Assembly: GCA_946402065.1 (NCBI GenBank)
Contig: CAMIVR010000004.1
Coordinates: 1-64,000, forward strand
Source of the DNA: an uncultured Brevibacillus sp.
GTDB lineage: Bacteria > Bacillota > Bacilli > Brevibacillales > Brevibacillaceae
DNA length: 64,000 bases
Reading direction: 5' to 3'
In this document: positions 26,841-64,000 of the stretch, piece after piece
Layout of the letters: every line of letters begins with the position of its first letter
Position numbering within the stretch: position 1 is the stretch's first letter
Position numbers and translations under genes: made by a program
The notes under the pieces: model-generated
Databases searched by the model: none
Told to the model about the DNA's origin: nothing
What the model saw: the letters and a program-made list of their open reading frames with translations, nothing else

Positions 26841-26996
26841 GGTTATCCCCCTAATCATTTTCCGAACTCTGCCATTATACTATATTTTATCGCAAAAATG
26901 ACGGTCTTGTCGCTGGTCAAACCCCAAGCGGATTTCCGCGAAAAAAATAAAAAACCTTGGATCCGGGATCACAAGAGCTTACCTTCGAAAGATGTA

Positions 26997-27050
26997 TGGT
27001 GCCGGTAGAGGGACTTGAACCCCCACGGTTTCCCTCACGATTTTGAGTCG
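26997..27050 (-). tRNA. tRNA-Leu(CAA) 3' fragment, left attachment site of the element
   Basis: Read on the minus strand this is the 3' two-thirds of a leucine tRNA: anticodon stem CGA/TCG with loop CTCAAAA (anticodon CAA), a variable arm GTGAGGGAAACCGTG, the T arm GGGTTCAAGTCCC and the terminal CCGGCACCA. The sequence upstream is not a D arm or acceptor strand, so the gene is not intact. Such a fragment is what remains on one side when an element integrates into a tRNA 3' end. The orientation predicts the complete tRNA at the far right end of the element, outside the window. Confidence 0.85.
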
Positions 27051-27099
27051 CACATGCTATTCGGAAGATAGCAGAAACTAAGTCAAAGATGAGGAATCT

Positions 27100-47692: not shown

Positions 47693-47857
47693 AACCATCA
47701 CCTCGGGCTATATAGTTCTTTATAAACTCCATCAATATGGGCCAAAAGAATGTGTTCGTTCCTGTATAAATTCGACTTCATACCTGATTTTTCCTCTGAT
47801 TTTGTAGAAATTTGTATAAACGTCATGCCTTCTTTAAATTGATAAGGAGTTGTTTTT

Positions 47858-48835: not shown

Positions 48836-48867
48836 ATCTTTTTTCCATTGGATAAGAGAACTGCCGG

Positions 48868-49002
48868 ACCAAAAACAGAGGGGACCCCCTCTGTTTTTGG
48901 TGTAAAGGCAGGAATAGCAAAATGTCATTTTGCGAAAAAACAGCGTGAAAGCAGAGCTTTCACCGACATTTTTACGGGTGTTCCCCCGACAATCGCATGT
49001 CG
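48868..49002. other. Candidate oriT: cluster of four inverted repeats
   Basis: Four perfect inverted repeats lie in 135 bases before the relaxase operon: ACCAAAAACAGAGGGG with its complement (16-bp arms, 2-base spacer), GCAAAATG/CATTTTGC (1-base spacer), GTGAAAGC/GCTTTCAC (3-base spacer) and CGACA/TGTCG. A transfer origin is expected next to the relaxase gene. The first repeat could alternatively be a terminator of the TOPRIM gene. Confidence 0.55.
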
Positions 49003-49037
49003 CTTGGCGGATAACCCCCAAGAGTGAGGTGCTGCCG

Positions 49038-49520
49038 TTGGCACGCGCAGAGAAAACGGTGCAAATCACCGTCAAGCTGCCCAAAAAACAATATGATGCA
49101 TTAAAAAAATACGCCGCTTCCAAGCATTTGAGCATGGCGGATATTGTGCGGGCGTTTATCCAAAAAGGCATGTCTGTGGAGGCTTATACCGAGGAGATCG
49201 ATTTCATCACGGCCATCATCCGCCAGGAGATCAAAATTGCCATTGACGGATTAAGCAACCGGCTAGCCGGACTCGCCAGCAAGGACTTAATCATGTCGGC
49301 TGCCTCCTACTACTCCACCATTGCGATTATCGCCGATCTGATTGATACGAATCGGTATACGACCTTTCGGGAGATCGAGAAGAAAGCGCGGCGGCTTGCG
49401 GTGGACTATGTCAAAATGAAGCTCACCGATGCTGAAAAACTGTTTTTGTCGGGGAATGCGTTGGATCAGAGCATCGAGCATCTACGCGGGGGCGACTCCG
49501 ATGTCGATCCTGATCTATAA
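49038..49520 (+). CDS. MobC-like ribbon-helix-helix mobilisation protein
   Basis: A 160-residue protein with an N-terminal ribbon-helix-helix motif (KTVQITVKLPKKQYDALKKYAASKHLSMADIVRAF) and a helical remainder. Proteins of this kind bind oriT and help the relaxase. I place the start at the TTG at 49038 with GAGGTG seven bases upstream; the ORF track begins in the inverted-repeat region. The relaxase start lies within its 3' end. Confidence 0.75.
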   Translation: MARAEKTVQITVKLPKKQYDALKKYAASKHLSMADIVRAFIQKGMSVEAYTEEIDFITAIIRQEIKIAIDGLSNRLAGLASKDLIMSAASYYSTIAIIADLIDTNRYTTFREIEKKARRLAVDYVKMKLTDAEKLFLSGNALDQSIEHLRGGDSDVDPDL

Positions 49521-50736
49521 ACAGCGCTTCTTCCATCCCAACCACCCGAAAACGGCGAAAAGCAACTACTGCCATATCGGATATATTGCCACCCGTCCTG
49601 GTGCGGTGAAGAATGAAGGCATGAATCATGGGTTGTTCGGGAAGCTGCGCCCCGGAAACTTGCAGGAGTTTTCCTCTTGGCAAGAAGTGGCCCGACTGGC
49701 ACGCGACTTATCCCGACAAAAAAAGAACATGTATCGCAGCGTCATTTCATTCAAACGAGATACGGCGCTGGAACTGGGCCTAACCAATCAGAAGGCTTGG
49801 CAACAGTATATTGAACAACATATCTCCACCATCGCCGCCCAAAATCACATTAAAGGAAAGAACCTCTGTTGGGCCGCCGCTGTCCATAATGAGAAGGAGC
49901 ATCCGCATCTTCATGTCGTCTTTTGGGATCGACAACAGGACATCCTGAAAAACTATACCCACCCCGAGATTCCCAATCGCATACGCAGGCAATTGATCAA
50001 AGACACCTTTGCTTACAAGATCAAACAATTTTGCGCTTTGCGGGATCAGTTTAAATCCGGTATTACGGAAATCACCGACCGCATGGTAAGTGAATTCGAG
50101 TTGTATATCAAGAATCTGAACCCGAAATCGTTCAAGGTTTTCTACAAACGCTTTATGAAGGAGGATGAAGATTCCCTGCACCGTCTACCGAAACACCATC
50201 TTTTTCAGCAAAGCCATGCCGCTGCGCTAGCCGAAAAACTGGTTCAACTCCGCGCAAACATGCCGAAAACCGGAAGACTCGCTTATCAACTCCTCCCCCC
50301 TGCTGTGAAATCCATGTTGGATGAACTCGTACAGGAATTGATGAAAACCAATCCCTATCTGGCACAAATGGTTGAGGATTATGTCCAAGTCAAAGTCCAA
50401 ATCGCGATGCTGTATGACACCGATCCGGAACGTATCGCTAACTACTGTGAGAAGTATCTGACCGAGGCGAAAAAGCGAATCGCGAACCGTATTTTGGGAA
50501 CGGTCCGTACGCTGATCAAAATGGAACGGGAAGTAACCATGGAACAAAACCATAGGATACGGCGACAGTACCTGGCCGAGCAGCTTCTGGTTGGCATCCT
50601 TGATATGCTGGAGAGTCTGATCATGAACGGCAATATAGACTACGATGACAAAGCAAAAGCCATGGGCACGGAGTTATCCAAACAAGCCAAAAAGGAATGG
50701 TTTATAAAACATCGGGACAAGGGTTTAGAAAGATAA
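49501..50736 (+). CDS. HUH relaxase, MobP type
   Basis: The 411-residue relaxase has the histidine-cluster motif HPHLHVVFWDR (metal-binding HUH) and an N-terminal region with possible Tyr nucleophiles (NYCHIGYIATRP). The C-terminal half is helical. It nicks oriT and leads the strand into the recipient. The ATG at 49501 overlaps the accessory protein gene by 20 bases and has GGGGGCG upstream; the track start is 24 codons earlier. MobP3-type relaxases of Firmicutes elements look similar. Confidence 0.87.
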   Translation: MSILIYKQRFFHPNHPKTAKSNYCHIGYIATRPGAVKNEGMNHGLFGKLRPGNLQEFSSWQEVARLARDLSRQKKNMYRSVISFKRDTALELGLTNQKAWQQYIEQHISTIAAQNHIKGKNLCWAAAVHNEKEHPHLHVVFWDRQQDILKNYTHPEIPNRIRRQLIKDTFAYKIKQFCALRDQFKSGITEITDRMVSEFELYIKNLNPKSFKVFYKRFMKEDEDSLHRLPKHHLFQQSHAAALAEKLVQLRANMPKTGRLAYQLLPPAVKSMLDELVQELMKTNPYLAQMVEDYVQVKVQIAMLYDTDPERIANYCEKYLTEAKKRIANRILGTVRTLIKMEREVTMEQNHRIRRQYLAEQLLVGILDMLESLIMNGNIDYDDKAKAMGTELSKQAKKEWFIKHRDKGLER

Positions 50737-50862
50737 CATCCATCATATTCTTCATCCACTATTGTGGATAAATCTGTGAATAACCGGTGAATATTCTGTG
50801 GATAATTACACCCTTTGTTTACGAAATGGCTTTTCATTTTGATTGAAGAAAGGAACGATCTC

Positions 50863-51030
50863 ATGTTATTTACCGAAGGCAAACATCAACAGTACGAACG
50901 AATGATGCGGCAGACTCCGCGAAATCATCCACGTTCAAGGAAAGAAAAAAAGAACTCGGAAACAAAACGTACAGCTCAGCAGGTTCCTCCGAACCATCCC
51001 AAGGAGAGTTGTTCTTATGGAAATCAATGA
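50863..51030 (+). CDS. Small basic mobile-element protein
   Basis: The 55-residue product is very basic and hydrophilic (MLFTEGKHQQYERMMRQTPR, then a Lys/Arg/Asn-rich tail). AAAGGA lies eight bases before the ATG. Its end overlaps the next gene by 14 bases. I recognise no domain; it could bind DNA or belong to transfer regulation. Confidence 0.6.
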   Translation: MLFTEGKHQQYERMMRQTPRNHPRSRKEKKNSETKRTAQQVPPNHPKESCSYGNQ

Positions 51031-51652
51031 ACGCATGAAAAAAGTATTACAAGTCCAGCTTTCTCATTTGGGCCTGGAATTGAAACCGGAGAATCGTTTT
51101 CCCCTGACTGTGCTCCATGATCATCGCCCGATTGCATACATTCAAGAGGACGGTGCAGTCCATTACCCTGTTGATCGAGACACCACGCCTGCCCGCCGAA
51201 TTCCCGGTGTCATCGCAAAAGTTTGGGAGATGGAGCAGGCTTACCGTCAGGCTCCACATCTGGAACTATCCGGCGTGAACAGTTACAAAAAAATTCTTCA
51301 ATACAACCAACATCTATTGGCTGCCCGGTACGACGGAAACGGCCATTTTCGTTTTGTGACCTGGCAAGTCAATTTCGATCAAACGGGTGTAACGCTGGGC
51401 CACTATTTTTATCGGAATGAATACGAGCAGGCGAAAGAAGATTTTATCCAACGCAGCGGACTGGTGGACGAACGAAAATTATTCAGCAAGGAACAGCTTT
51501 CCATACTCTATTCCAGGTTCCATGATGTCAGTCTGGACTACCCGGAAAAGCAAGAAATTGACCGATTAATACGACAAATTGAGACGATCACCCCAGTTTC
51601 CCAAGCGGTTCAGCAACCTGAACTTGACCCCGAATTGGATAACGAACGCTAA
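51017..51652 (+). CDS. Uncharacterised element protein, paralogue of the next gene
   Basis: A soluble 211-residue protein of unknown function. Its C-terminal half shares the pattern RSGL-DE-KLFS-E-L and YFYRNEYEQAKEDF with the next gene, so the two are diverged duplicates. AAGGAG lies upstream of the ATG. It sits between relaxase and coupling-protein genes, which suggests a role in transfer, but nothing in the sequence defines it. Confidence 0.75.
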   Translation: MEINERMKKVLQVQLSHLGLELKPENRFPLTVLHDHRPIAYIQEDGAVHYPVDRDTTPARRIPGVIAKVWEMEQAYRQAPHLELSGVNSYKKILQYNQHLLAARYDGNGHFRFVTWQVNFDQTGVTLGHYFYRNEYEQAKEDFIQRSGLVDERKLFSKEQLSILYSRFHDVSLDYPEKQEIDRLIRQIETITPVSQAVQQPELDPELDNER

Positions 51653-51684
51653 AACAGTTCCGTTTGTCGAAAGGAGATGGCAAT

Positions 51685-52383
51685 TTGAAAAGCAAAACGG
51701 AGTTTTACAAGAAGTTTTTTGAAGCCTTGACCAAACAAGGCTTTGAAGTAAAACGCTCCACCTCTGCCGATTATTTGGCCGATTTGTATTATAAAGACCA
51801 GCTTGTTGCCTTCTACACCCGGATGGACACGATCGAGAAAAACCCATTCGTCACCGTACCGGACCGACTCATGGGCGCGATTCACGATTTGGCCAGACAA
51901 ACGGCGTTGCAAGCTGGAATCTGCGTGGAAAAACCTTATACGGACAAAGACCCAAAAATCGCCAATGGTGTGTATAAGTTAAGCGAATACAACGATGTGA
52001 TCTTGGCTTGCAAGCATCATCCCATGTTTGAGTATGTGTTCTCCACGTATCGCCTTTCCCCGGAAAACGGAACGCCAGTGCAGCGGCAGTATTTTTACAA
52101 TAAAGAAGAAGCGTTGGAAAACTTCGCAGTACGGAGTGGACTCATAGACGAAAAAAAGCTGTTTAGCGAAGAAGAACTGGTCCTGATCCATTCCGAACTG
52201 ATCAAATTCATGATTACACCCAACGATAAAACGGTCGAACAGTTCGAACGAGCAGAAACCATCATTGAACGGATTGAGGAACTTCTGCCGGCATTAAAGG
52301 ATCGGGAAATTCATCTGGAGTTCGAACTGGAGTTTCAACATGAAGATGAACTGCTGGCCGAAGAGATGGAAATCGGAGATTAG
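51685..52383 (+). CDS. Uncharacterised element protein, paralogue of the previous gene
   Basis: A 232-residue soluble, acidic protein. The start is taken as the TTG at 51685 with AAAGGAG seven bases upstream. Shared with the previous protein are YFYNKEEALENFAVRSGLIDEKKLFSEEEL and the spacing around it. No catalytic motif is seen. Function is unknown. Confidence 0.75.
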   Translation: MKSKTEFYKKFFEALTKQGFEVKRSTSADYLADLYYKDQLVAFYTRMDTIEKNPFVTVPDRLMGAIHDLARQTALQAGICVEKPYTDKDPKIANGVYKLSEYNDVILACKHHPMFEYVFSTYRLSPENGTPVQRQYFYNKEEALENFAVRSGLIDEKKLFSEEELVLIHSELIKFMITPNDKTVEQFERAETIIERIEELLPALKDREIHLEFELEFQHEDELLAEEMEIGD

Positions 52384-52437
52384 TCTTCGTGTTCCTAACC
52401 ACTTTGCTAAAGCAGTCGTTACAAGGAGGGATTTGCC

Positions 52438-53283
52438 TTGGCAAGCGCAAGACCGGAAAGCTCCCTCTGGGGGAACATCATAACCTGCACCGAAATCGCC
52501 CTTCATGTTTATGAAATCGTGGCCGAGTATAAAAGCGGAATCGTCATTCCTACTGAACAAGCAGAAGAGTTGCTAAGTCCGAAAGCCGTTGCGCTTGGCA
52601 ACGAAAAAGACGGGTATTTGCATTACGAGGATGACCAAAAAAGCATGATTCCGGCCTACGAACTGCTGCAAAAAGACCTGATCACAGACCACGATTTTAA
52701 AGAGAAATACGGAACGCCGGAACAATTAGAAAAGGAAGGCCCCTTTTTTGTTCCCGAATATTTCGAAATACTGGAAGAACCACAGACTTCGCCTTGGGGC
52801 GATATTGCCAAGACAACCACGATCCACCATGGGATCGGCTTGATTGAAAGCGAAGGCAAAGCCGCGTTAGCCGTCCATCAAACCATTGGCGATCTTTTCC
52901 TATCTGACATGGCACGGCAGCACGCTGTCACCGATGGAGGCTATTTGTTTTATACCCTAGATGCGAACTGTGCCATCCCCATCTATGAATTGTCCGCTTC
53001 GCATCCGCAAGTGCTGGAATTGATTATCGACGAGGACAGTCTGGTGCATACGCTATGCGAGGATTTCCCCGATTACGTCGATTTTCATAACCGTCATGTC
53101 GACGAGTGGGGATGGATTCAAGACTTTCCTGCCCCCAAAGGGTTATTTTTACAAGCTCAGGTAGACCAGGAAATCGGTCATCCGCTTCGTACCAGCGAAC
53201 AAGTTGCCGAATCTTCCTTATCGTATGGAAGTGAACCGGAGACCGACGACTTTTTTGAGCCAAACGGAGAGTATGAGTTGTGA
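52438..53283 (+). CDS. Uncharacterised protein with an internal duplication
   Basis: A 281-residue acidic protein with two copies of one domain: residues about 9-78 (SLWGNIITCTEIA ... DGYLHYEDDQKSMIPAYELL) and about 117-190 (SPWGDIAKTTTIH ... GGYLFYTLDANCAIPIYEL). The start is TTG with AAGGAGG eight bases upstream. It overlaps the next gene by four bases and so belongs to the coupling-protein operon. I do not recognise the family. Confidence 0.75.
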   Translation: MASARPESSLWGNIITCTEIALHVYEIVAEYKSGIVIPTEQAEELLSPKAVALGNEKDGYLHYEDDQKSMIPAYELLQKDLITDHDFKEKYGTPEQLEKEGPFFVPEYFEILEEPQTSPWGDIAKTTTIHHGIGLIESEGKAALAVHQTIGDLFLSDMARQHAVTDGGYLFYTLDANCAIPIYELSASHPQVLELIIDEDSLVHTLCEDFPDYVDFHNRHVDEWGWIQDFPAPKGLFLQAQVDQEIGHPLRTSEQVAESSLSYGSEPETDDFFEPNGEYEL

Positions 53284-53774
53284 AAACCAAGTACAAGGTG
53301 ATCATCTGTTTGTTCCTCTTCGTTGTTGGAGCGTTCTTCAATCTGTTCTTTACCACCGCCTTGCACGGCATCTTATCCGGAAAACCCCATACGCTTGCCT
53401 TCACTCCTTTCGCGGGTTGTATCGCAAGTCTCATTGCCAGCAAACAACATTTGCTGCTTTTTTTATGCTTGCAAGGATTGGTCGGCGTCGTGTCCACGAT
53501 GTTCTTTTTTACGAATCATCGCCCTTACCAAAGTGAACTGGCCCGCATCACGCCGCAAATCGAAACGCCGGTTCCGGTTGGACAGCATCAGCACGGCTCT
53601 TCCAGATGGTTGACGGAACCAGAAAAGCAGTGCGCTTTTGATACGCTCGTACTGGATCTCAAGCATCCGCTGATCCGGGAACTCATCGCGACCGGCTACG
53701 ATCATCTGGAATTTTACCAACGCGGGGAGGAGGAGCAATCTCATGAAGTATCCGGAGAACATTTCAAAGAATGA
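53280..53774 (+). CDS. Coupling-protein N-terminal part (membrane domain), separate gene
   Basis: The 164-residue protein has two membrane helices (about 6-30 and 50-76) and then a sequence found just before the ATPase core in VirD4-like coupling proteins of the CD1115 type (TPQIETPVPVGQHQHGSSRWLTEPEK). Here it is a separate gene that ends 32 bases inside the ATPase gene, in another frame. The start is GTG overlapping the previous stop. It probably forms the membrane anchor of the coupling protein. Confidence 0.78.
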   Translation: MKTKYKVIICLFLFVVGAFFNLFFTTALHGILSGKPHTLAFTPFAGCIASLIASKQHLLLFLCLQGLVGVVSTMFFFTNHRPYQSELARITPQIETPVPVGQHQHGSSRWLTEPEKQCAFDTLVLDLKHPLIRELIATGYDHLEFYQRGEEEQSHEVSGEHFKE

Positions 53775-55335
53775 AGACGGGGCCGCTGCAAAGGAACAGC
53801 CTCTGCCCTTCTCGCAAGGCGGAATCGTGGTAGGCATGAACAAACTGCGCGGGAAAGAACGCATCTATTGCATCCAAGACGATGTGCACACGCTTTGCCT
53901 GGGCGCAACCCGCAGTGGAAAATCGAGAACGGTTGTGCTGCAATCCATCTGTACGCTTGGCCTTGCCGGGGAATCGCTGGTCATTTCTGATCCCAAAGCC
54001 GAATTGTACCACTATACCCACGAATTTTTGCAAAAGTTGAATTATGACGTGTATGCACTGGATTTCCGTACGCCTGAAAAAAGCCATCATTACAATCTGC
54101 TCCAACCGATCATTGATGCTGCCCTTCGCGGTGATCAGGAACAGGCGGAAATGCTGGCTTGGGATATGACCAACGTTCTTGTCGGCAAATCACAGGGAGA
54201 AAAAATCTGGACAAACGGGGAAATGTCCGTCATCGCCGCCACGATTTTAAGTGTGGTGTGGGACAATGCCAAACGGCCGGAATACCAGAACTTGACCAAC
54301 GTCTACTGGTTTTTGGCCGAGATGAACCGTCAAATCGGAAATAAAACGCCAATGCAGGACTATATGAAGCGTCTCCCGCCCACCCATCCTGCCAGAGCCC
54401 TGCTCAGTATTTCCGACATCGCGCCTTCGCGCACCAAGGGAAGCTTCTATACTTCAGCTCTGACGACACTGCGTCTTTTCACGTCCAAATCCATCTATGC
54501 CATTACTCACAAAAGCGACTTTTCGTTAACCGAATTGGGGGAGAAGAAACAGGTGTTGTTTATCATTTTACCGGACGAAAAGACGACCTTCTACCCTGTC
54601 GCTTCCCTCATGGTATCGCAGTTGTATGAGTTACTAACAGCAGAGGCAGATAAACGCGGCGGCAGACTGAAACGGCGCGTGAACTTCATTCTGGACGAAT
54701 TCGGTAACTTTACACCGATTGCCGATTTCACGAACAAGCTGACGGTAGGCGGCGGGCGCGGCATGCGGTTCAATTTGTTCTTGCAAAGTTTTGAACAACT
54801 CAAGGAAAAGTATGATGCTCACGCCGCCAGTACAATCAAATCAAATTGTCAAACCTGGATTTATTTGCAGGCGGATGACCTGGAGACGCTGCGGGAAGTC
54901 AGCGAAAAACTGGGCACGTACACCACTTCCAGTTACCAGCTCTCTGCTTCTAACAGCAAATATTCTACGCCAAGCACATCGCACAGCATGAACCTGATGG
55001 AACGCAAGCTTTTGACCGTAGACGAGGTGCGCCGCGTCGCCCGGCCGTATCAAATTGTCATTTCTCGAAGCCACCCCGCGATGATGTTTTCGCCCGATTT
55101 AAGCGAATGGGCTTTTAACGCCATGCTGGGGTTGGGCGATAAAGAGCATAATCGTCAGGTTCGGGAAGAACGGGAACGAAAGCGGCCAGTTCGGACCGAT
55201 ACGCGAAAGGAGGTGAAACTGTGGAATATCTGGGTTTATTATCAGAAAGACATCGCCAGACAACTGGAAGAGAAAAGACTCCAGGAGGCAACAGGGGGTA
55301 ACGTTTTTTTCGGACCCAATTCGGACATAGAATAG
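53743..55335 (+). CDS. VirD4-like type IV coupling protein, ATPase part
   Basis: The 530-residue protein has the TraG/VirD4 core: Walker A LGATRSGKSRTVV, Walker B VNFILDEFGNFTPI, GGGRGMRFNLFLQS and the all-alpha segment between. It links the relaxase-DNA complex to the secretion channel. It has no membrane helix; the anchor is encoded by the preceding overlapping gene. GGAGGAGGAG lies eight bases before the ATG, so separate translation is likely and a simple sequencing frameshift is less likely. Confidence 0.88.
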   Translation: MKYPENISKNEDGAAAKEQPLPFSQGGIVVGMNKLRGKERIYCIQDDVHTLCLGATRSGKSRTVVLQSICTLGLAGESLVISDPKAELYHYTHEFLQKLNYDVYALDFRTPEKSHHYNLLQPIIDAALRGDQEQAEMLAWDMTNVLVGKSQGEKIWTNGEMSVIAATILSVVWDNAKRPEYQNLTNVYWFLAEMNRQIGNKTPMQDYMKRLPPTHPARALLSISDIAPSRTKGSFYTSALTTLRLFTSKSIYAITHKSDFSLTELGEKKQVLFIILPDEKTTFYPVASLMVSQLYELLTAEADKRGGRLKRRVNFILDEFGNFTPIADFTNKLTVGGGRGMRFNLFLQSFEQLKEKYDAHAASTIKSNCQTWIYLQADDLETLREVSEKLGTYTTSSYQLSASNSKYSTPSTSHSMNLMERKLLTVDEVRRVARPYQIVISRSHPAMMFSPDLSEWAFNAMLGLGDKEHNRQVREERERKRPVRTDTRKEVKLWNIWVYYQKDIARQLEEKRLQEATGGNVFFGPNSDIE

Positions 55336-55350: not shown

Positions 55351-55692
55351 ATGAAGAGATGGATACGCAGAGTCATTCGCTACAGCAGAATGGCTCTTTT
55401 TGTGTTGGGCACAAGCTTATGGCTGACCCAACCTGCTAATGCAGCGGATATCCAAAACAGCAAGATTGTAAAGGGAACGGAAAAGCTGATTGGGGATGTC
55501 ACAACCTGGCTGATGATCCTCGCTCCCGTTGTTTCCGGTCTGCTGATCATTTACTTCTGTATTCGGCGTTCTGCAGCGGATGAAATGGATCAGAAGAAAT
55601 GGAACAACCGCATCATCGTTGCCGTTGTTTCCTGTATCGGAGCCGTACTTGGTTCCGCCACACTGAACGTCATTATTGGCTACTACAAGTAA
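55351..55692 (+). CDS. VirB2-like pilin candidate
   Basis: The 113-residue protein has a signal peptide (ALFVLGTSLWLTQPANA, cleavage likely after ANA), and two hydrophobic segments separated by a short charged loop (RRSAADEMDQKKW). This is the layout of VirB2/TrbC-like subunits in Gram-positive conjugation systems. AGGAGG lies 11 bases before the ATG. It follows the coupling protein by 15 bases. Confidence 0.65.
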   Translation: MKRWIRRVIRYSRMALFVLGTSLWLTQPANAADIQNSKIVKGTEKLIGDVTTWLMILAPVVSGLLIIYFCIRRSAADEMDQKKWNNRIIVAVVSCIGAVLGSATLNVIIGYYK

Positions 55693-55756: not shown

Positions 55757-55987
55757 ATGAAAAAGTGGCTGAAAACCGTAAAGAAAAACTCTATGCAACG
55801 TATTTTGCTGGCAAAATCGGTCATCACCGACCGCCGCGGCGAAGGGTTTGTAGATACTGCCGTGAAAATTTTGATGGCTGTCGTCATCGGCGCTTTGGTG
55901 CTTGCGGGCTTGTATCTGCTCTTCAGCGATACGATCCTGCCTACTCTGACAGAACGGATTCGGAACATGTTCAATTACAGGGGATAA
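55757..55987 (+). CDS. DUF6133-like pilin-type membrane protein
   Basis: A 76-residue protein with a basic N-terminus, then RRGEGFVDTAVKILMAVVIG, one membrane helix and a short tail. This resembles DUF6133 proteins of conjugative elements. The Gly-Glu-Gly followed by an aromatic residue and a hydrophobic helix resembles a prepilin cleavage site, although the usual Glu at +5 is missing. A prepilin peptidase is encoded 1.5 kb downstream. GGAGGG precedes the ATG. Confidence 0.7.
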   Translation: MKKWLKTVKKNSMQRILLAKSVITDRRGEGFVDTAVKILMAVVIGALVLAGLYLLFSDTILPTLTERIRNMFNYRG

Positions 55988-56044: not shown

Positions 56045-56893
56045 TTGAGGAAACTGGAAGCCATTTTAGTGGTGCTGATCGTAGCCATCCTGAATGGAGC
56101 CTTGATATACATCGATACATTGCTGAAAGATATTATTCCGATGACCCTGTACGCTGAACGTTCTATGACCGCTCTCTCGGGCGGGAATATCGCGGATTCC
56201 CTGTTCGATATTTTGTTCGGCTTCGGGGTTTCCCTCATCATTTTGAAGTTTTTGAAAAAGGGGTTTGAAATTTATGTGATGTGGTCCGATGGCGATCCTG
56301 ATGAAGAACCGCTATCGCTGCTCACCAATTTTTTCAAAGCGATGGCCGTAGCGATTTGTTTCCCGACAATTTATCTATGGCTGGGCCAGATCGTGGAAGA
56401 GTTAACGGACAAGCTGCTTGTTGCCCTCGGGCAATCGACCAATTACGATTGGAATGCCTGGGTAAGCGGGATTAGCTCGTTGGGATTGGTGACAGCCATT
56501 TTCGGGCTGATCTTCATCATCTGCTATTTCATTCTTTACTTTCAATTTCTCATGCGCGGGTTGGAAATTCTCATTTTGCGCATTGGGGTGCCCCTCGCTT
56601 GCGTTGGACTGTTGGACAACGATAAGGGCGTGTTCAAAGCCTACTCCCAAAAGTTCGCCCAATCGACATTGGCCGTTGTCGTACAAATTACGCTGGCCAA
56701 GCTGGGCGTCGGGTTAATGTTGAATATGCACATCTTTTGGGGTCTTGCCTGCATGGTGCTGGCCATTCGCACGCCGCGCTTCTTGTCCGACTTCCTTATT
56801 ACGACTGGCGGCAATGGGGGAGTCGTCAACAATGTATATCATTCCGTCAGACTGGTCGGTATGGCTCGCAAAATGTTGATGAAAACGGGGTGA
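56045..56893 (+). CDS. VirB6/TrbL-like conjugal transfer membrane protein
   Basis: The 282-residue polytopic protein has six or so membrane helices and the conserved FKAMAVAICFPTIYLWLG and ITLAKLGVGLMLNMHIFWGLACMVLAIRTPRFL, as in TrbL/VirB6-like proteins of Firmicutes elements. It forms part of the channel in the membrane. The track start is TTG at 56045, but AAAGGAGG touches it; a CTG at 56054 would have normal spacing. The true start is therefore open. Confidence 0.82.
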   Translation: MRKLEAILVVLIVAILNGALIYIDTLLKDIIPMTLYAERSMTALSGGNIADSLFDILFGFGVSLIILKFLKKGFEIYVMWSDGDPDEEPLSLLTNFFKAMAVAICFPTIYLWLGQIVEELTDKLLVALGQSTNYDWNAWVSGISSLGLVTAIFGLIFIICYFILYFQFLMRGLEILILRIGVPLACVGLLDNDKGVFKAYSQKFAQSTLAVVVQITLAKLGVGLMLNMHIFWGLACMVLAIRTPRFLSDFLITTGGNGGVVNNVYHSVRLVGMARKMLMKTG

Positions 56894-57184: not shown

Positions 57185-57514
57185 ATGGAAGACAATCCTC
57201 AAACCCTTTATATCCCCATGGGCGTAAAATCGGAAACGGAGTTGTTTCCCGGATTCGGTCGAAAACAACTCTTTCAATCGGTAATCGGTTCGCTAGGAGC
57301 TGGCTTTGTCGCTTTGCTGCTTTGGATTTTCGGGAGAAGCGTTTCCTTAACCATAGTCACCTTTCTAATCGGCGTTTCAGCTTCCGTCATGATGACCACG
57401 AAAGATCGCATGAATCTGTCGGTGCTGGACCAAATGAAACAAATGATCCGTTTCGCCAAAGGTCAGAAAAAATATCCGTATATCGCGATGAACGAATGGC
57501 CTGACAAGCCCTAA
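57185..57514 (+). CDS. PrgI-family (VirB3-like) transfer protein
   Basis: The 109-residue protein begins IPMGVKSETELFPGFGRKQL, has two membrane helices and ends in MIRFAKGQKKYPY, the usual form of PrgI proteins in Gram-positive conjugation systems. In most elements the VirB4-like ATPase gene follows immediately; here a prepilin peptidase gene follows instead. AGGAGG precedes the ATG. Confidence 0.85.
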   Translation: MEDNPQTLYIPMGVKSETELFPGFGRKQLFQSVIGSLGAGFVALLLWIFGRSVSLTIVTFLIGVSASVMMTTKDRMNLSVLDQMKQMIRFAKGQKKYPYIAMNEWPDKP

Positions 57515-57527
57515 GGAGTTTCAAAAA

Positions 57528-57953
57528 ATGTGGGTAGTAAAAGGTATACTCTTTGCCAGTCTGCTGCTGTGGGCAAGTATTTCCGATATCCGAAAACGGG
57601 AAATCCCGGATATGCTTCCGGCATGCATCTTATTTATCGGTTTGATTCAAGTCTCCCTGCTCCCTGCCCTATTAGGTTTGTTTGTTACCGCTCTTCCCTT
57701 TTTTGCAGCAGCGATTTTATCCCATGGGAGGATCGGCGGCGGAGATATAAAACTGATGGCTGCTTGCGGCTTTGTTTTAGGCGTTTCCGGGGGATTTCTG
57801 CAAACGATCATTGGACTTTCAATGGCTTTGATCGGGTGGTTGTTCCAATCTGCCACTTCCTGTTTCAAAAATAGTCGAAATATAGCGATGCCGCTTGCGC
57901 CGTTTTTGGCTGTAGGCGGCATCGTCGCTTTTTGGATCATTCATAGAGCTTAG
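57528..57953 (+). CDS. A24-family prepilin peptidase (TadV/CpaA-like)
   Basis: The 141-residue membrane aspartyl protease has both catalytic sites: Asp20 in SISDIRKREIPD and Asp73 in RIGGGDIKLM. It lacks the N-terminal methylase domain, as in TadV/CpaA. It cleaves the leader of Flp-type pilins and pseudopilins. AAGGAG lies nine bases before the ATG. It opens a set of Tad pilus genes. Confidence 0.9.
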   Translation: MWVVKGILFASLLLWASISDIRKREIPDMLPACILFIGLIQVSLLPALLGLFVTALPFFAAAILSHGRIGGGDIKLMAACGFVLGVSGGFLQTIIGLSMALIGWLFQSATSCFKNSRNIAMPLAPFLAVGGIVAFWIIHRA

Positions 57954-57965
57954 GAGGAATGCAAA

Positions 57966-58721
57966 TTGCAATGGGTTAAGAATCGTACCGTGCTGGGGAT
58001 TGGCTGTATCGTCCTTTCTCTCCTGATTTGTTTTGGGTTAACGCCCCTGTTTCAACAATCCTTGCAGGCACAGACGGAAATCGTCAGAGTCACGCAGGAC
58101 ATCGCAACAGGCGAACAAATCACCAATGAAAAGTTGGAAATCGTCCAGGTTGGGGCATACAACTTGCCGTCCAATGTGCTGACATCGATGGATGCAGTCA
58201 TAGGACAGTATGCCGCTGCTGTGTTACAAAAAGGAGACTATATTCTCTCGACGAAACTATCCGCTGTTCCGCTCGCAGAATTTTTGGACCGTTTGAACGG
58301 AAGTAAGCAAGCGATATCGATCAGTATCAAAAGTTTTGCAGCGGGTCTATCGGGCAAACTGCAATCCGGGGACATTATTACCCTGATCGCTTCCGATTAC
58401 GGGGAAATGAGAACGACGACCATGCCGCCGGAACTGCAATATGTCGAAGTGCTTGCCGTAACGACAAGCAGCGGGGTGGACAAAGAAAAGGCATCCACAC
58501 AAAAAAAATCCGACGATGACAAGCAGCAGTTGCCTTCTACGCTCACGCTGCTGGTACAGCCGATACAAGCGCGACTTCTTGCTGACATAGAGGTCAAAGG
58601 CCAACTCCACGCTGCTCTCGTATATCGGGGAGATCAAACCACTGCTCAAGCTTTTATCGCCAAACAGGATGCTTTTCTCTCCGAAAAGTCTACACCAGAT
58701 AAGGAGGCTGTCCATGAATAA
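57966..58721 (+). CDS. CpaB/RcpC-like SAF-domain pilus assembly protein
   Basis: The 251-residue protein has an N-terminal membrane anchor, a SAF domain (VTQDIATGEQITNEKLEIVQVG and VLQKGDYILSTKL) and an RcpC-like second part (KSFAAGLSGKLQSGDIITLI, LTLLVQPIQARLL). CpaB proteins support Flp pilus assembly at the cell surface. The start is TTG with AGGAGG eight bases upstream. It overlaps the next gene by eight bases. Confidence 0.87.
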   Translation: MQWVKNRTVLGIGCIVLSLLICFGLTPLFQQSLQAQTEIVRVTQDIATGEQITNEKLEIVQVGAYNLPSNVLTSMDAVIGQYAAAVLQKGDYILSTKLSAVPLAEFLDRLNGSKQAISISIKSFAAGLSGKLQSGDIITLIASDYGEMRTTTMPPELQYVEVLAVTTSSGVDKEKASTQKKSDDDKQQLPSTLTLLVQPIQARLLADIEVKGQLHAALVYRGDQTTAQAFIAKQDAFLSEKSTPDKEAVHE

Positions 58722-59523
58722 TCACCAAATCATTGCCGTATGGGGCAGTCCGGGCAGCGGAAAGACGGTAACTTCCATAAAACTGGCTCGGGAATTTGCC
58801 TCCAGGCAAATCAATGTACTGGTTGTCCTCTGTGATTCGGTATGCCCTTCGATTCCAACCCTTCTGCCAGGTGTCCATGCAAAAGAACAATCATTGGGCA
58901 GATTACTCAGTTTGCCGTCGATATCGCAAGAACAGATTTTCCAGCATCTCGTTCCATGCAAAGCTTTTTCCCATCTGGCGTTCATCGGCTATGTTCACGG
59001 CGATAACGCCTTTACCTATGCCAGCTATACCAAAGAGAGAGCGCTGGATTTTTTCACCTTGAGCCGACACCTTGCAGATGTCGTCATCGTGGATTGCTCC
59101 AGTGTGTTGTCTGCCGACCCGTTATCCGTGGCCGCGCTTGAAGTCGCTGATCAGGTTTTGCGAATGCATGAATGCACGCTGAAAAGCCTAAGTTATTTTG
59201 CCTCTCATTTACCGCTGCTGAGTGACTCCCGATTTCATGCAGATCGTCATTTGCATCTTCTTTCCAACGTGAAAGCAAAACAAGACAGTGTTCAATACAG
59301 CAATGTCTTTGGCGGGATTCATCACCTGCTGCCTTTTGTCTCTATCGTGGAACAACAAGCGGTTTCGGCTCGGTTATTGGACGCTTGCGAAGGAAAAGAC
59401 GCCGGTTCCTACCTGAGTGCCATTCAAAAATTAGCTGGACGTTTTATGGACCATCCTTCGAAAGCAGAAAAGCAACCATTCATCCAGCGCTTGATACAAA
59501 GGTTCAAAGGAGTGCGGTCATGA
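58714..59523 (+). CDS. CpaE/TadZ-like P-loop ATPase
   Basis: The 269-residue protein has an N-terminal P-loop VWGSPGSGKTVTSIKLA and a MinD/ArsA-like fold with ADVVIVDCSSVLSADPLSV. No receiver domain is present. In Tad systems the CpaE/TadZ protein places the assembly machinery in the cell. AAGGAGG lies six bases before the ATG at 58714. Its stop overlaps the next start by four bases. Confidence 0.82.
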   Translation: MNNHQIIAVWGSPGSGKTVTSIKLAREFASRQINVLVVLCDSVCPSIPTLLPGVHAKEQSLGRLLSLPSISQEQIFQHLVPCKAFSHLAFIGYVHGDNAFTYASYTKERALDFFTLSRHLADVVIVDCSSVLSADPLSVAALEVADQVLRMHECTLKSLSYFASHLPLLSDSRFHADRHLHLLSNVKAKQDSVQYSNVFGGIHHLLPFVSIVEQQAVSARLLDACEGKDAGSYLSAIQKLAGRFMDHPSKAEKQPFIQRLIQRFKGVRS

Positions 59524-60866
59524 AAGGGGCAACGTTATTTTATCCGGCAAGTAGCAATAAAAAGCCATTTTCCGAAGTACTGAAAGAGGTGCAAGAATAT
59601 CTCTCCGGCAAATACGCTACGCTTATTTCCCGAAATGCCGAGGAACAAAAACAACAGATCATTTCGTATACCACCAAATATGTCATGGATTATCGCTTGA
59701 GTGTAGACGGACTTTCTTTCGACGAACTGGTGGAACGGTTATATGCGGAAATGGCGGAGTTTTCTTTTCTTACCCCGTATTTGTTTTCCCATGATGTAGA
59801 GGAGATCAATATCAACGGGTACAAAGATGTCAAAATCACCTATACGGATGGGCGCATTCTCCCAGCTTCCGAACGGTTTACCTCACCGGAACATGCCGTC
59901 GACGTGGTCAGACGCCTGCTGCACAAATCAGGGATGATCCTGGATCATTCACAACCGATCGTTCGTGGACATCTGGCCAACAATATTCGGATTACGGTTT
60001 TCGGCGCACCGATCACCGATTCGGACAAAGGCGTAGCCGCATCCATACGGATCATTAACCCGCAAAAATTGGGAAAACAAGATTTCATTCACAATGGAAC
60101 GGCTACGGCGGAAATGCTGGATTTTGTAAGTCTTTGTTTGCGCTACGGCTTGTCCATTTGTGTTACTGGAGCCACCGGCAGCGGGAAAACGACCTTGATG
60201 AGCTGGATGTTATCGACCATTCCTTACGACAAGCGAATTTTCACCATTGAGAATGGCACCCGGGAATTCGATCTTGTGGTGGAAGATGAAAATGGGCAAG
60301 TGCAAAATAACGTCGTTCATACCGTTACCCGTTACAGTGAAGACAGCCGGCAACATATAGATCAGGAGAAGTTGCTCGAATATGCACTTACCGCCAATCC
60401 GGATATCATCTGTGTCGGGGAGATGAAATCGGCAGAGGCCTTCGCCGCGCAAGAAGCAGCCCGTACCGGACATGCGGTAATCACGACGACGCATGCCAAT
60501 TCCTGCATCGCCACCTATTACCGGATGGTTACGCTCTGTAAACAAAAATACGATATGAGCGACCATACTTTGTATAACCTTGTTACGGAGGCGTTCCCAA
60601 TTGTCATGTTTGCCAAGAAATTGGAGGATAACTCCCGCAAGGTGATGGAAATTACCGAATGCGAAATTTTGCCGGATGGAAGCCGGAATATCCGTACGCT
60701 TTTTCGCTATACTGTGGCCTCCAATACGATGGAGAACGGGAAAATTCGGATTAGCGGAGCGTATGAAAAGGTACAAAATATATCACCAAGTTTACAAAAA
60801 CGGCTGCTCGAAAACGGGATGCCGCTCCATCTGCTGCAACAAATGATGGGAGGCGAATCCGCATGA
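59520..60866 (+). CDS. CpaF/TadA-type secretion ATPase
   Basis: A 448-residue ATPase of the type II/IV secretion superfamily with ELVERLYAEMAEFSFLTPYL, the Walker A GATGSGKTT (about 217-225), the Asp box near VVEDENGQ, Walker B-like DIICVGEMKSAEAFAAQ and the His box TGHAVITTTHANS. It drives assembly of Flp pili or similar filaments. The ATG at 59520 has AAAGGAG seven bases upstream; the track start lies 45 codons too far upstream. It overlaps both neighbours by four bases. Confidence 0.92.
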   Translation: MKGATLFYPASSNKKPFSEVLKEVQEYLSGKYATLISRNAEEQKQQIISYTTKYVMDYRLSVDGLSFDELVERLYAEMAEFSFLTPYLFSHDVEEININGYKDVKITYTDGRILPASERFTSPEHAVDVVRRLLHKSGMILDHSQPIVRGHLANNIRITVFGAPITDSDKGVAASIRIINPQKLGKQDFIHNGTATAEMLDFVSLCLRYGLSICVTGATGSGKTTLMSWMLSTIPYDKRIFTIENGTREFDLVVEDENGQVQNNVVHTVTRYSEDSRQHIDQEKLLEYALTANPDIICVGEMKSAEAFAAQEAARTGHAVITTTHANSCIATYYRMVTLCKQKYDMSDHTLYNLVTEAFPIVMFAKKLEDNSRKVMEITECEILPDGSRNIRTLFRYTVASNTMENGKIRISGAYEKVQNISPSLQKRLLENGMPLHLLQQMMGGESA

Positions 60867-61795
60867 TCGTACTGCTCGTCATAGCCTTTATGGGCCTCGT
60901 TTCCGGTTCCTTCCTTGTTTTGAAATTGAATCCTGCAGAATGGGTACGCGAAGTAGCCGGACACATACCTCTCCGAAAGAATCCTTCCTTGCGAAAAAAA
61001 ATCAAAGCCATACAGAATCCGAAAAAGATAAAAGGCATCCGGCTGACGATTCATGAAGTCAAAACGATGCTGGAACAAATGGTAAGGAAAGAATCCTTTG
61101 GAAAGGTCTGTATTTCTTCCCTCGCTCTCTTTATCGTTGGCGCTCTATTGGCCCTGGCTTTTGGCAATTTGTTTATGGTGCCAGTTCTCGCAATAGGTTT
61201 TGCCCTCCTGCCTTTTTGGCTTGTGCTGTTCAGCGCAAGCTTTTACAAAAAGCGTCTGAATGCCGAACTGGAAACCGCTCTATCGGTCATCACCACCTCT
61301 TACTTACGCAGCGAAAATATACTATCAGCCGTAGAGGAAAACGTCGGTTATTTGAATCCCCCCGTATCGGATGTGTTTCTGTCCTTTCTGGCCCAGTCCA
61401 AGCTGATTAACTCCAATCTGCAACAAGCGTTAACAGAGCTCAAAGGCAAAATCAACAATAGCGTCTTTCAGGAATGGTGCGACGCGGTTATGGCTTGTCA
61501 GGAAGACGTCACCCTCAAAACGACGCTTCCCCCGATTATTTCCAAACTGTCCGATATGCGCGTCGTCTCTGCTGAATTGGATTTTCTGCTTTACGAACCG
61601 TTAAAGGAATTCATTACGATGGCGCTGCTTTTGATCGGGAATATTCCGCTCCTGTATTTTCTTAACAAAGATTGGTTTCACACGCTGGTCGAAACAGCGG
61701 CGGGCAAATTCGTCTTGGCTCTTTGTGCGCTAACCTTGTTCATCTCCCTGGCCGCGGTCATTCGATTAACACGCCCGATCGAGTATAAAAGATAA
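60863..61795 (+). CDS. TadB-like inner-membrane assembly protein
   Basis: The 310-residue protein has a cytoplasmic segment, paired helices near 90-130 and 255-305, and a type II secretion F-like domain with YLRSENILSAVEENVGYLNPPV between them. It resembles TadB of Flp pilus systems. It overlaps the ATPase gene by ATGA. With the TadC-like protein it would form the platform for the ATPase. Confidence 0.75.
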   Translation: MIVLLVIAFMGLVSGSFLVLKLNPAEWVREVAGHIPLRKNPSLRKKIKAIQNPKKIKGIRLTIHEVKTMLEQMVRKESFGKVCISSLALFIVGALLALAFGNLFMVPVLAIGFALLPFWLVLFSASFYKKRLNAELETALSVITTSYLRSENILSAVEENVGYLNPPVSDVFLSFLAQSKLINSNLQQALTELKGKINNSVFQEWCDAVMACQEDVTLKTTLPPIISKLSDMRVVSAELDFLLYEPLKEFITMALLLIGNIPLLYFLNKDWFHTLVETAAGKFVLALCALTLFISLAAVIRLTRPIEYKR

Positions 61796-61820
61796 AACCT
61801 ACTCGTTAGGAGGAACTGAC

Positions 61821-62120
61821 ATGTCAACATCACACTCTCGCGATATGGAAACAACCTTACAACGAACCGCTACGATTCTGGAAAGACTCCTTTCCCCTCC
61901 TTCCTCAGTTACTACCCAAATTCAACAGGGATTGAAAAAATACGGAACGTGGGGCTTTTTTCAACGATTGGATGAGCTGGACTTGCCCGAAGAAACGCGT
62001 TACAAGCTACATGCCGTGCGCCTTGTCCTTTATGGAACCGGAGAATTGAAGGATGAATCCGATCAGGCAAACAGGGATGTTCCGCAGGATTGGGGGTACC
62101 CTTATGACACCATCTTATAA
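61821..62120 (+). CDS. Uncharacterised small protein
   Basis: A soluble 99-residue protein with a helical N-terminus (METTLQRTATILERLLSPP) and the sequence GTWGFFQRLDELDLPEETRYKLHAVRLVL. AGGAGG precedes the ATG, and the end overlaps the next gene by 17 bases. I recognise no family. Confidence 0.65.
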   Translation: MSTSHSRDMETTLQRTATILERLLSPPSSVTTQIQQGLKKYGTWGFFQRLDELDLPEETRYKLHAVRLVLYGTGELKDESDQANRDVPQDWGYPYDTIL

Positions 62121-62868
62121 CTCGCTTCATGCCTCCAACTTTATTGAAGGGATATCCGCACTGACCGGCATTTCGACCCACAAACTGCAAAAATACGCCA
62201 GGGATCATAATCTGTTCAATATTCTCGATCACCCTTATGTCATTGAATCCACGCCGCGCCAGCTTGAAAAGCTCCATCTATTAAACGAATTTCTCGTTTC
62301 CTACAAATTGCTCCGATTCGAAGAAAGTCAGGGGAAGAGCCCGTTCCGTTCTCCCGACGATGCAGGAAAGTTTTTTGCCGCGCAATTGGGACATGTCAAA
62401 GACAAAGAGAAACTGATGGTTGCGTTTTTGGACAATGGGAACCATTTGATCGAGTCACGCGTGATGTCAGAAGGTAGCGTCGGGTTCGCCCAAGTTTATC
62501 CCCGCGAGATTTTAAAAGCGGCATTGAATTGCGACTGCGCCGCTATCATTTTGGCACATAATCACCCCGGCGGTTCCCTTCGTCCCAGTATGGAAGACCA
62601 AATCCTGACTGAGCGCCTTGTTTCGATTTTCTCTCCATTGCACATTTCCGTGTTGGACCATTTGATTATTGCGAACGGAACCTATGCTTCCATGGCCGCG
62701 ATGGGGCAATTGCCGCAGCCTTCCGACGATAAAGTAAACTACGAGAGCATCATACTTCGTTCCGAGACCACAACCGTGAACGAGGCCTTATATGAGAACC
62801 ATTCGGCTGCTTGGGATGACTTTAGTTCTCACTACACCACATGGGAAGAAGATGAATTGGAACGATGA
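62104..62868 (+). CDS. RadC-like JAB-domain protein
   Basis: The 254-residue protein has a C-terminal RadC/MPN+ domain with the metal-binding motif AHNHPGGSLRPSMEDQILTERL and a helix-hairpin-helix-free N-terminal part. RadC-like proteins are common cargo of mobile elements; a role in DNA repair is not established. The start at 62104 overlaps the previous gene and has GGGGG seven bases upstream. The gene sits oddly between tadB-like and tadC-like genes. Confidence 0.86.
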   Translation: MTPSYNSLHASNFIEGISALTGISTHKLQKYARDHNLFNILDHPYVIESTPRQLEKLHLLNEFLVSYKLLRFEESQGKSPFRSPDDAGKFFAAQLGHVKDKEKLMVAFLDNGNHLIESRVMSEGSVGFAQVYPREILKAALNCDCAAIILAHNHPGGSLRPSMEDQILTERLVSIFSPLHISVLDHLIIANGTYASMAAMGQLPQPSDDKVNYESIILRSETTTVNEALYENHSAAWDDFSSHYTTWEEDELER

Positions 62869-62881
62869 AGGAGGTGAGCCT

Positions 62882-63754
62882 GTGATCGGCATCCTTGTGA
62901 GCTTCGGTCTGCTATTTGCAACCGGAGCTTATTTTTTGGCCTCAGAATGGTTAAAGCTGCCTACATGGGCGGATACGCGTGTCATCATACAAGCAACCAA
63001 GCCGTTCAAGCGAAAAAGCCAGCTTCTTGAAGCGATTGTTTCCGAACTTTCAACTCGCCTAGCTCCCCTCATTCCGCTAAGCGATTATAAACGAAGAAAG
63101 ACCGAAGCCATATTGAAATCGGCAGGGATCCGCATGACGCCTGCCGCGTTTTATGCCAAGGCCATCGTCAAATCCGGCTTGGTCGCCCTGTTGATTATTC
63201 CCTGCTTGCTCATTTTCCCCTTGCTTTCTCCCTTGCTTCTGTTTTTAGCAATTGGTGTCTACTTCAAGGATATCCAATCCGCGGACTGGGTCATTCGCAA
63301 AAAGCGGGAGCAGATCGAGTATGAACTGCCCCGCTTTGCCGCTACCATTGCACAAGAGTTGAAGGCGACCCGAGACGTTTTGCTGATCCTGGAAACGTAT
63401 CGAAAAAACGCCGGAGAAAGTTTGGCAAGCGAACTGGAAATCACGATAGCCGATATGAAAAGCGGCAATCACGAGACGGCATTAACCCGACTGGAGACTC
63501 GTATGGGCAGCACGATGCTGTCCGATATTGTCCGCGGCCTTCTGGCTGTACAACGGGGCGACCAAGGTGTCGTCTATTTTGAAATGCTGGCTCATGATTT
63601 TAAGCTGCTGGAAATTCAGCGATTGAAACTGATCGCGATGAAGCGTCCCGGCAAAATCCGCAAATATTCCTTTTACATGCTTGGATGCTTTTTGCTCATG
63701 TATCTGGTGATCATCGGTATGGAAATTATGAAAGCCCTCGGCAAACTGTTTTGA
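62882..63754 (+). CDS. TadC-like inner-membrane assembly protein
   Basis: The 290-residue protein has an N-terminal helix, two central helices and a type II secretion F-like domain (LPRFAATIAQELKATRDVLLILETY, ALTRLETRMGSTMLSDIVRGLLAVQRG) with a C-terminal helix. It is the second platform protein of a Tad-type system. GTG start with AAGGAGG seven bases upstream; the track start overlaps radC by 77 bases and is unlikely. Confidence 0.78.
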   Translation: MIGILVSFGLLFATGAYFLASEWLKLPTWADTRVIIQATKPFKRKSQLLEAIVSELSTRLAPLIPLSDYKRRKTEAILKSAGIRMTPAAFYAKAIVKSGLVALLIIPCLLIFPLLSPLLLFLAIGVYFKDIQSADWVIRKKREQIEYELPRFAATIAQELKATRDVLLILETYRKNAGESLASELEITIADMKSGNHETALTRLETRMGSTMLSDIVRGLLAVQRGDQGVVYFEMLAHDFKLLEIQRLKLIAMKRPGKIRKYSFYMLGCFLLMYLVIIGMEIMKALGKLF

Positions 63755-63769
63755 AGGGAGGAGTTGCGA

Positions 63770-64000
63770 ATGCAGCATTGTTTACGGTGCAAACGCGGCG
63801 AGGGTTATATCGATGTTGTCGTACTTGTTCTGGTTGTCATGCTCGGTATCGCGTTAGCGGTGAAAGTGTTTCCTGTGTTTATCGCCAAAAACCAGCTTGA
63901 CCGTTTTGCCGACGAATTGGTCAGAGAAGCCGAAATCACCGGCAGAGTCGGTCAGGAAACAAGCAGTCGCGCGATACAGTTAAAGAACCAGACCGGGCTT
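63770..64000 (+). CDS. DUF4320-like pseudopilin, cut by the window end
   Basis: The visible 77 residues show CKRGEGYIDVVVLVLVVMLG followed by an amphipathic part. The RGEG-aromatic-hydrophobic-Asp motif and the following membrane helix match the DUF6133-like protein at 55757 and resemble a pilin leader. DUF4320 proteins occur in conjugative elements and are TadE-like in layout. AGGGAGGAG lies six bases before the ATG. The gene continues beyond the window. Confidence 0.72.
   Translation, partial: MQHCLRCKRGEGYIDVVVLVLVVMLGIALAVKVFPVFIAKNQLDRFADELVREAEITGRVGQETSSRAIQLKNQTGL

Follow-up and report, generated by a model that had tools for sequence, protein, structure and literature searches.

A Tad-type pilus gene set in the transfer region of a putative conjugative element from Brevibacillus

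A putative conjugative element of an uncultured Brevibacillus sp. carries a set of Tad/Flp pilus genes within its transfer region, and we judge it probable (roughly 0.6) that these genes encode a complete, dedicated monoderm pilus machine whose filament serves mating contact. The window, i.e. the whole stretch of 64,000 nucleotides analyzed here, comprises positions 1–64000 of contig CAMIVR010000004.1 (C4) of a 5.84-Mb assembly; the contig ends at 79880, and we read on past 64000. Four lines of evidence lend good support to the view that the Tad set is part of the transfer region and may build a filament of the element’s own: the anatomy of the locus, its linkage to transfer genes, signs of purifying selection, and the pairing of the module, seen repeatedly, with transfer systems of different kinds. 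A first-pass annotation of this DNA had proposed such a filament for contact between donor and recipient; the same evidence speaks for the filament, and the contact role we infer.

The Tad block is flanked by prgI (57185) on one side and by a split virB4 (~67257–70602) on the other. All of its named genes are intact open reading frames (ORFs), tightly spaced or overlapping, and the transfer and Tad genes are all on the + strand (Table 1). The tight run of Tad genes after prgI had been described in the first pass at the positions where we find it, but that description omitted a radC gene and a small ORF between tadB and tadC. Its suggestion to read beyond 64000 was borne out: the block continues to ~67.2 kb, followed by virB4 as two ORFs around a C39 peptidase gene.

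The identities of the Tad proteins vary in the strength of their matches. Among solved structures, TadA is nearest to CpaF (8rjf, 4.5e-25), with VirB11 behind at 1.5e-14. Pfam returned no match for the element’s TadB or TadC proteins themselves; 8 of 33 TadC homologues matched T2SSF, at best with 4.7e-5. The modeled structure of the conserved secreted protein encoded at 65482 (mean predicted local distance difference test score, pLDDT, 86) has a leading hydrophobic segment, an Ig-like domain (263–355) and a further beta domain, and a fold search with it gave matches only to common Ig-like and beta-sandwich domains. No secretin was seen with the element’s Tad genes.

The flanking genes supply the core of a Gram-positive conjugative type IV secretion system (T4SS), i.e. 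relaxase, VirD4 and VirB4; MobP3 and VirD4 score over their cut-offs and the VirB4 motor under its own. VirB6-, VirB3- and VirB2-like membrane proteins are present as well: the TrbL_4 match is strong, and those of PrgI and the VirB2-like protein are weak, yet their positions are conserved.

Relatives, phylogeny and selection

A TadA-alignment scan of named genomes returned 420 relatives, and stretches were taken for the best 80 of the 420. The relatives are spread over many families of Bacillota (Paenibacillus, Clostridium, Desulfosporosinus and others), and the search for the same order that the first pass had called for thus found it well beyond Brevibacillus. A24, CpaB, TadZ, TadA, TadB, TadC, DUF4320, 64156 and 65482 are all present in 52/52 relatives with full flanks. 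PrgI and TrbL_4 accompany them in 46 of the 52, and in every one of the 46 full-flank relatives having PrgI the order is PrgI, CpaB, TadZ, TadA, TadB, TadC, DUF4320, 64156. VirB4 lies downstream of the Tad block wherever the range reached that far (36/36). DUF4320, which marks the module, occurs in 39/398 sampled genomes of the phylum (~10%) and in 14/398 of the class.

We call the relatives with the PrgI-to-64156 order type A, and those in which the module opens with DUF6133 directly before the A24 gene type B. In those type B loci for which longer sequence was taken (G206 twice, G070, G367, G147, G368), the module is followed, without a change of strand, by VirB4, a MobP3-like relaxase, the primase and VirD4. 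The module also stands beside transfer genes on four complete plasmids: Terrisporobacter pTPHSE1 (two DUF6133 genes, VirD4, a pLS20_p028-type protein and MobP2), Clostridioides difficile pCd5_2 (adjoining VirD4 of the CD1115 family and a VirB4-like gene), Oscillospiraceae MB08-C2-2 (MobP3, TrbL) and Clostridioides pESS17301a (PrgI and a VirB4-like gene). MOB-suite typed all four as non-mobilizable, although pTPHSE1 and MB08-C2-2 have annotated relaxases. Type C loci (L042, L046, L052, L053), which have DUF4320 and Tad genes, were left out of the count, transfer genes being in reach for some only (VirD4-like and primase near L052, primase near L053). Taken together, the Tad set in a transfer region appears to be a widespread module, not peculiar to this element. 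Two further plasmids were observed in passing: Thermoanaerobacterium pMU3262 (L074) bears two different Tad sets with a DUF4320 gene in each, and on a Virgibacillus halodenitrificans plasmid (L195) a Tad set that includes DUF4320 is accompanied by two pilin-sized genes of 74 aa and by a class F sortase.

The TadA tree places the sequences of type A, of type B and of the plasmids together in a single supported clade, separate from 25 chromosomal Tad sequences; the deepest branching order is unsure owing to long branches. The host chromosome itself contains, in addition to the element’s, two Tad clusters that lie next to each other yet differ considerably (contig C7, 36449–44349, L009, and 45708–54009, L010). 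One of them falls among the 25, and the other forms a very long branch outside. The tree, together with equal guanine-plus-cytosine (GC) content (Tad block 0.478, flanking transfer genes 0.476–0.478, cargo 0.39), rules out that the element recently picked up a Tad locus of its host.

Among type A loci, the correlation between the distances of TadA and those of VirB4 is 0.92 (0/2000 permutations as high), compared with 0.88 for VirD4 and VirB4; the TadA–VirB4 correlation points to long joint inheritance, not to function. Between types, VirB4 is 22–29% identical to the element’s and falls into deep, separate lineages of the VirB4 tree; TadA is 40–60% identical. The simplest reading would be that one Tad module was combined with different transfer systems on more than one occasion, perhaps on three or four, an estimate that depends on weakly resolved deep branches.

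The ratio of nonsynonymous to synonymous substitution rates (dN/dS) was calculated against Paenibacillus sp. MSJ-34. On the Tad side it was 0.029 for tadA, 0.077 for tadB, 0.090 for tadC, 0.158 for cpaB, 0.086 for DUF4320 and 0.110 for DUF6133; on the transfer side, 0.036 for virB4, 0.050 for virD4 and 0.026 for prgI. Because these values are low, the Tad genes appear to be kept functional, with tadA constrained like virB4. A chance arrangement or misread ORFs can be ruled out, given the intact ORFs, the conserved order and the low dN/dS.

Candidate pilins and a Tad-less relative

The pseudopilin that the first-pass annotation placed at 63764 is DUF4320; the likely Flp pilin, DUF6133, is encoded upstream (55757–55987) and had been missed. 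DUF6133 and DUF4320 have in common a G-E-G-[FY]-x-D motif ahead of a hydrophobic or transmembrane (TM) helix (hhalign 95%, E 6.5e-8). GxGxx[DE] is found in 74/82 DUF4320 and 56/74 DUF6133 sequences, and many of the remainder shown are close variants, e.g. GENFVD. Written as G/EGFVD, with a slash at the predicted cut, the motif resembles the class-III leader of Flp and TadE, D replacing E at position 5. An AlphaFold model of DUF4320 (pLDDT 81) consists of one 47-residue N-terminal helix followed by a small beta sheet, and structure searches with it brought up no neighbor.

DUF6133 genes directly precede the A24 gene in other elements, some of which have two copies. In the 398-genome sample, 22 of 29 DUF6133 matches lie ≤17 kb from a DUF4320 gene on the same strand, and the remainder are on contigs without DUF4320.

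A Tad-less relative, G386 (L175), proved informative. Its order is VirD4, VirB2-like, TrbL, 56900, PrgI, VirB4N, VirB4, the last three being contiguous, and the identity of its VirB4 to those of type A reaches 67%. The transfer region of G386 has no DUF6133, DUF4320, 64156, DUF6550 or 65482, and family searches across the genome found neither DUF4320 nor DUF6133. DUF6133 is thus gone from G386 although in type A it is located apart from the Tad block, before TrbL; it is likewise absent from more distant Tad-less transfer regions. We consider this joint loss with Tad, along with the linkage to DUF4320, the best evidence that DUF6133 is likely a component of the Tad machine and its pilin. A caution attaches to G386: a CpaB-like/SAF protein is encoded upstream of its Tad-less transfer region (L175, 4395–5429 of the reverse complement) and may be a remnant or unrelated.

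The element and its host

Homology extends from ~26.95–27.0 kb, at a tRNA-Leu-like 3' fragment, to ~71.7 kb. The fragment (26985–27060) resembles the 3' half of tRNA-Leu(CAA) and is the left homology limit in several genomes; in Paenibacillus sp. MSJ-34, a tyrosine-recombinase-like frame ends just outside this limit. No integrase was recognized between the two limits, and the right end has neither an intact tRNA nor an integrase. The element’s TadA was not found in other genomes of the host family (34 genomes in the list searched), yet 21.5 kb of the element are present at 96.4% DNA identity in Paenibacillus sp. J2TS4; for these reasons the element appears to be mobile or to have moved recently. 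No match was found in the phage records searched.

The assembly carries an 8% contamination flag. Nevertheless, the contig belongs to the host, because a chromosomal gene on it is closest to the host family (88–94% identity to host-family genomes vs. 75–83% to other families of the class). This identity, and the recurrence of the element’s gene order in independent assemblies, also argue against mis-assembly or contamination.

Other features are collected in Table 1. Within the variable region, the type IIG restriction system (39640–43604) adjoins the Gabija-like pair (43680–47701, minus strand; GajB 351 bits, GajA 288 bits), and together they constitute a defence island carried as cargo. The radC gene and small ORF between tadB and tadC (61821–62868) are found in Paenibacillus and Pseudobacteroides elements and not in most Clostridium ones. 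The division of virB4 into N-terminal and motor genes is kept in relatives; the position of the C39-like peptidase gene between them is not. From 53 to 64 kb, promoter-like and terminator-like sites were no commoner than in shuffled sequence.

Table 1. Genes and regions of the element, in contig coordinates (locus L008 numbering = contig position minus 60000)
Feature	Position	Strand	Remarks
ParA/ParB and 2189-aa helicase/methylase-like protein	27.3–36.2 kb		
Variable cargo region	36–48 kb		Insertion sequences (IS), type IIG restriction system, Gabija-like pair
DUF3991/Toprim primase-like	47858 (start)		Part of the element’s anatomy
MobC-like accessory protein	48930..49520	+	Start codon uncertain; named from position before relaxase; in few Paenibacillus relatives
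MobP3 relaxase	49429..50736	+	True start probably 49501; NF041499 2.7e-68, 231 bits, cut-off 150
VirD4 coupling protein, CD1115 family	53743..55335	+	NF045973 6e-99, above cut-off
VirB2/TrbC-like small membrane protein	55351..55692	+	T4SS_pilin/TrbC matches weak, under cut-offs; two predicted TM helices
DUF6133, candidate Flp-type major pilin, 76 aa	55757..55987	+	PF19629 1.4e-28; between VirB2-like gene and TrbL_4
TrbL_4 (VirB6-like)	56045..56893	+	PF19597 1.9e-118
Small conserved protein, 69 aa	56900..57109	+	Between TrbL_4 and PrgI; position kept in type A relatives and Tad-less G386
PrgI (VirB3-like)	57185..57514	+	PF12666 19.8 bits, below cut-off 27; conserved position; two TM helices
A24 prepilin peptidase	57528..57953	+	PF01478 1.5e-13, over cut-off; GxGD in 61/61 homologues
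CpaB/RcpC	57966..58721	+	PF16976 1.6e-16, over cut-off; SAF 2e-6
TadZ/CpaE-like P-loop ATPase	58714..59523	+	AAA_31/CbiA matches below Pfam cut-offs; ParA/MinD-like; place between CpaB and TadA conserved
TadA/CpaF motor ATPase	59520..60866	+	T2SSE 1.2e-27, over cut-off; Walker and His-box residues invariant in A1
TadB platform protein	60863..61795	+	hhalign to chromosomal TadB 98%, E 2.1e-14
Small ORF upstream of radC	61821..62120	+	In a subset of relatives only
RadC-family protein	62104..62868	+	PF04002 1.7e-37; absent from many relatives
TadC platform protein	~62852..63754	+	hhalign to chromosomal TadB profile 96%, E 3.2e-9
DUF4320, candidate TadE-like pseudopilin	63764..64165	+	PF14208 9.3e-38; window stops at 64000
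Second pseudopilin-like gene	64156–64698		Beyond window, downstream of DUF4320
DUF6550	64812–65417		Beyond window
Conserved secreted protein 65482, 581 aa	65482–67227		Beyond window
VirB4 N-terminal part	~67257–67946 (L008:7257 onward)	+	First half of split virB4, beyond window
C39 peptidase	67936–68781		Between VirB4 N-terminal part and VirB4 motor; membrane anchor
VirB4 motor	68782–70602	+	NF045975 366 bits, under cut-off 590; gene split in two
ParA/MinD-like	70698–71708		Downstream of VirB4 motor

Alternative roles and the meaning of a mating filament

How might such a machine work? The A24 peptidase would process both the DUF6133 pilin and the DUF4320 pseudopilin, cutting their class-III leaders directly behind the initial G of the G-E-G-[FY]-x-D motif. 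TadZ would position the machine, and a TadA hexamer would power TadB and TadC, with assistance from CpaB, such that a filament is built through the wall and perhaps retracted. The secreted Ig-like protein 65482 may act as a surface or tip adhesin. The filament would then find and hold a recipient, as the IncI thin pilus does in Gram-negatives (PMC9045228), while the neighboring T4SS (VirD4, VirB4, TrbL_4, PrgI) would pass the relaxase-bound strand.

Several observations weigh against this proposal. The TadB and TadC sequences are divergent; DUF6133 is not matched by the Pfam Flp family, and its acidic residue is D, not the usual E; and neither Foldseek (best E 0.18) nor VIA-align found a pilin match for DUF4320, although this last result does not in itself speak against a pilin-like protein. 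Linkage and constraint alone do not prove a role in mating. Finally, G386 demonstrates that the transfer backbone can exist without Tad. The first-pass annotation named as one refuting observation that the Tad genes be a separate insertion, absent from sister elements that still transfer; G386 matches this in part, as a relative that lacks the Tad genes and may or may not transfer.

Instead of a long filament, the Tad machinery could provide the transfer apparatus with a short pseudopilus or a secretion device, akin to a type II secretion system, for opening the wall or for exporting 65482 and the peptidase. The secreted 65482, with its Ig-like beta domains, and DUF6550 travel with the Tad set, a membrane-anchored peptidase gene lies among the virB4 genes, and no VirB8-like protein was recognized by Pfam (no fold-based search was made). 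We nonetheless think this unlikely: a separate small pilin-type gene, DUF6133, in two copies in places, fits a filament, and filaments are what known Tad systems make. It is rather unlikely, too, that the pilus is cargo that aids adhesion of the host to surfaces or cells and plays no part in transfer, even though chromosomal Tad pili are adhesins, host-benefit genes are frequent on elements and a Tad-less backbone exists. The block lies within the conserved transfer gene order and outside the variable cargo region (36–48 kb), Tad is paired with different VirB4 types while sharing its history with VirB4 within type A, and the host already has its two chromosomal Tad clusters.

TadA might also be the missing VirB11-type ATPase of a Gram-positive T4SS, with TadB, TadC and the pseudopilins as adapted parts of a hybrid translocation machine. 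VirB11 is usually wanting in these systems, the best NCBIfam score of TadA is to VirB11 (under cut-off), and the Tad genes sit between the VirB3-like and VirB4-like genes. Yet CpaF is the nearer structure, T4SS backbones do without the Tad block, and a prepilin peptidase and pilins would be superfluous in such a machine, making this idea very improbable.

The proposed mating pilus can be compared with known systems. Like the Tad/Flp pili of Caulobacter (cpa), Aggregatibacter (tad) and Bacillota chromosomes, the element has an A24 peptidase, CpaB, a TadZ-like protein, TadA/CpaF, TadB, TadC, a TadE-like gene and a small pilin candidate; it differs in its own TadA clade, the DUF6133 pilin candidate, the linkage to VirD4, VirB4, TrbL and relaxase, the presence of DUF6550, 65482 and sometimes RadC, and the lack of a visible secretin. 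As a general statement in the literature has it, no other type IV filament occurs on plasmids as often as Tad (PMC6668835). Mobile elements that bring a type IV filament besides a T4SS include IncI plasmids with a thin pilus (R64, TP114; PMC9045228) and PAPI-1 (reviewed in PMC12857230). There, a part in mating-pair stabilization or transfer was shown by experiment, but the filaments are Gram-negative and of the PilS/PilV type IVb, not Tad.

The first-pass annotation knew of no Tad set in a Gram-positive transfer region. For Bacillota, we found no description of such a filament, and no paper on DUF4320 or DUF6133, in the openly licensed literature, and an earlier description may exist outside it; the NCBI annotation names single genes and not the system; and neither Tad nor Flp occurs in a 2025 review of T4SSs (PMC12857230). 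For Gram-positives at large it needs qualification. The closest precedent is a 2017 report of Cutibacterium acnes linear plasmids on which VirB4/FtsK/TcpC-like genes neighbor a tad locus; its authors left the link to conjugation open (PMC5696575); those plasmids are actinobacterial, with FtsK/TcpC-type genes, and are likened here by description, not sequence. A C. difficile clade 3 contig, likewise compared by description, was reported in the same year to hold CpaB/CpaE/CpaF and par genes among unexplained unique genes (PMC5337907); the module of our element is also present on C. difficile pCd5_2, with a VirB4 of another lineage. Conjugative elements that bring a type IV filament were thus already known, and a Tad version in Bacillota transfer regions was not found described in the openly licensed literature.

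The general view is that monoderm T4SSs have no conjugative pilus and keep mates together through surface adhesins or aggregation. More tentatively, at a little short of an even chance, the Tad filament could be a general, exchangeable mating-contact device of Bacillota conjugative elements, one old lineage that became linked to several transfer systems of deeply different kinds and is needed for efficient transfer. If so, monoderm conjugation would gain the pilus it was thought to lack. Without a mating role, the retention of a dedicated pilus beside different transfer systems would still need explaining. Should the filament serve mating, the way in which such elements find partners would be explained, and DUF6133, DUF4320, DUF6550 and the 65482 family would fall into place. 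With the module beside several distinct kinds of transfer genes across Bacillota, a filament for catching partner cells may be carried by many Gram-positive elements.

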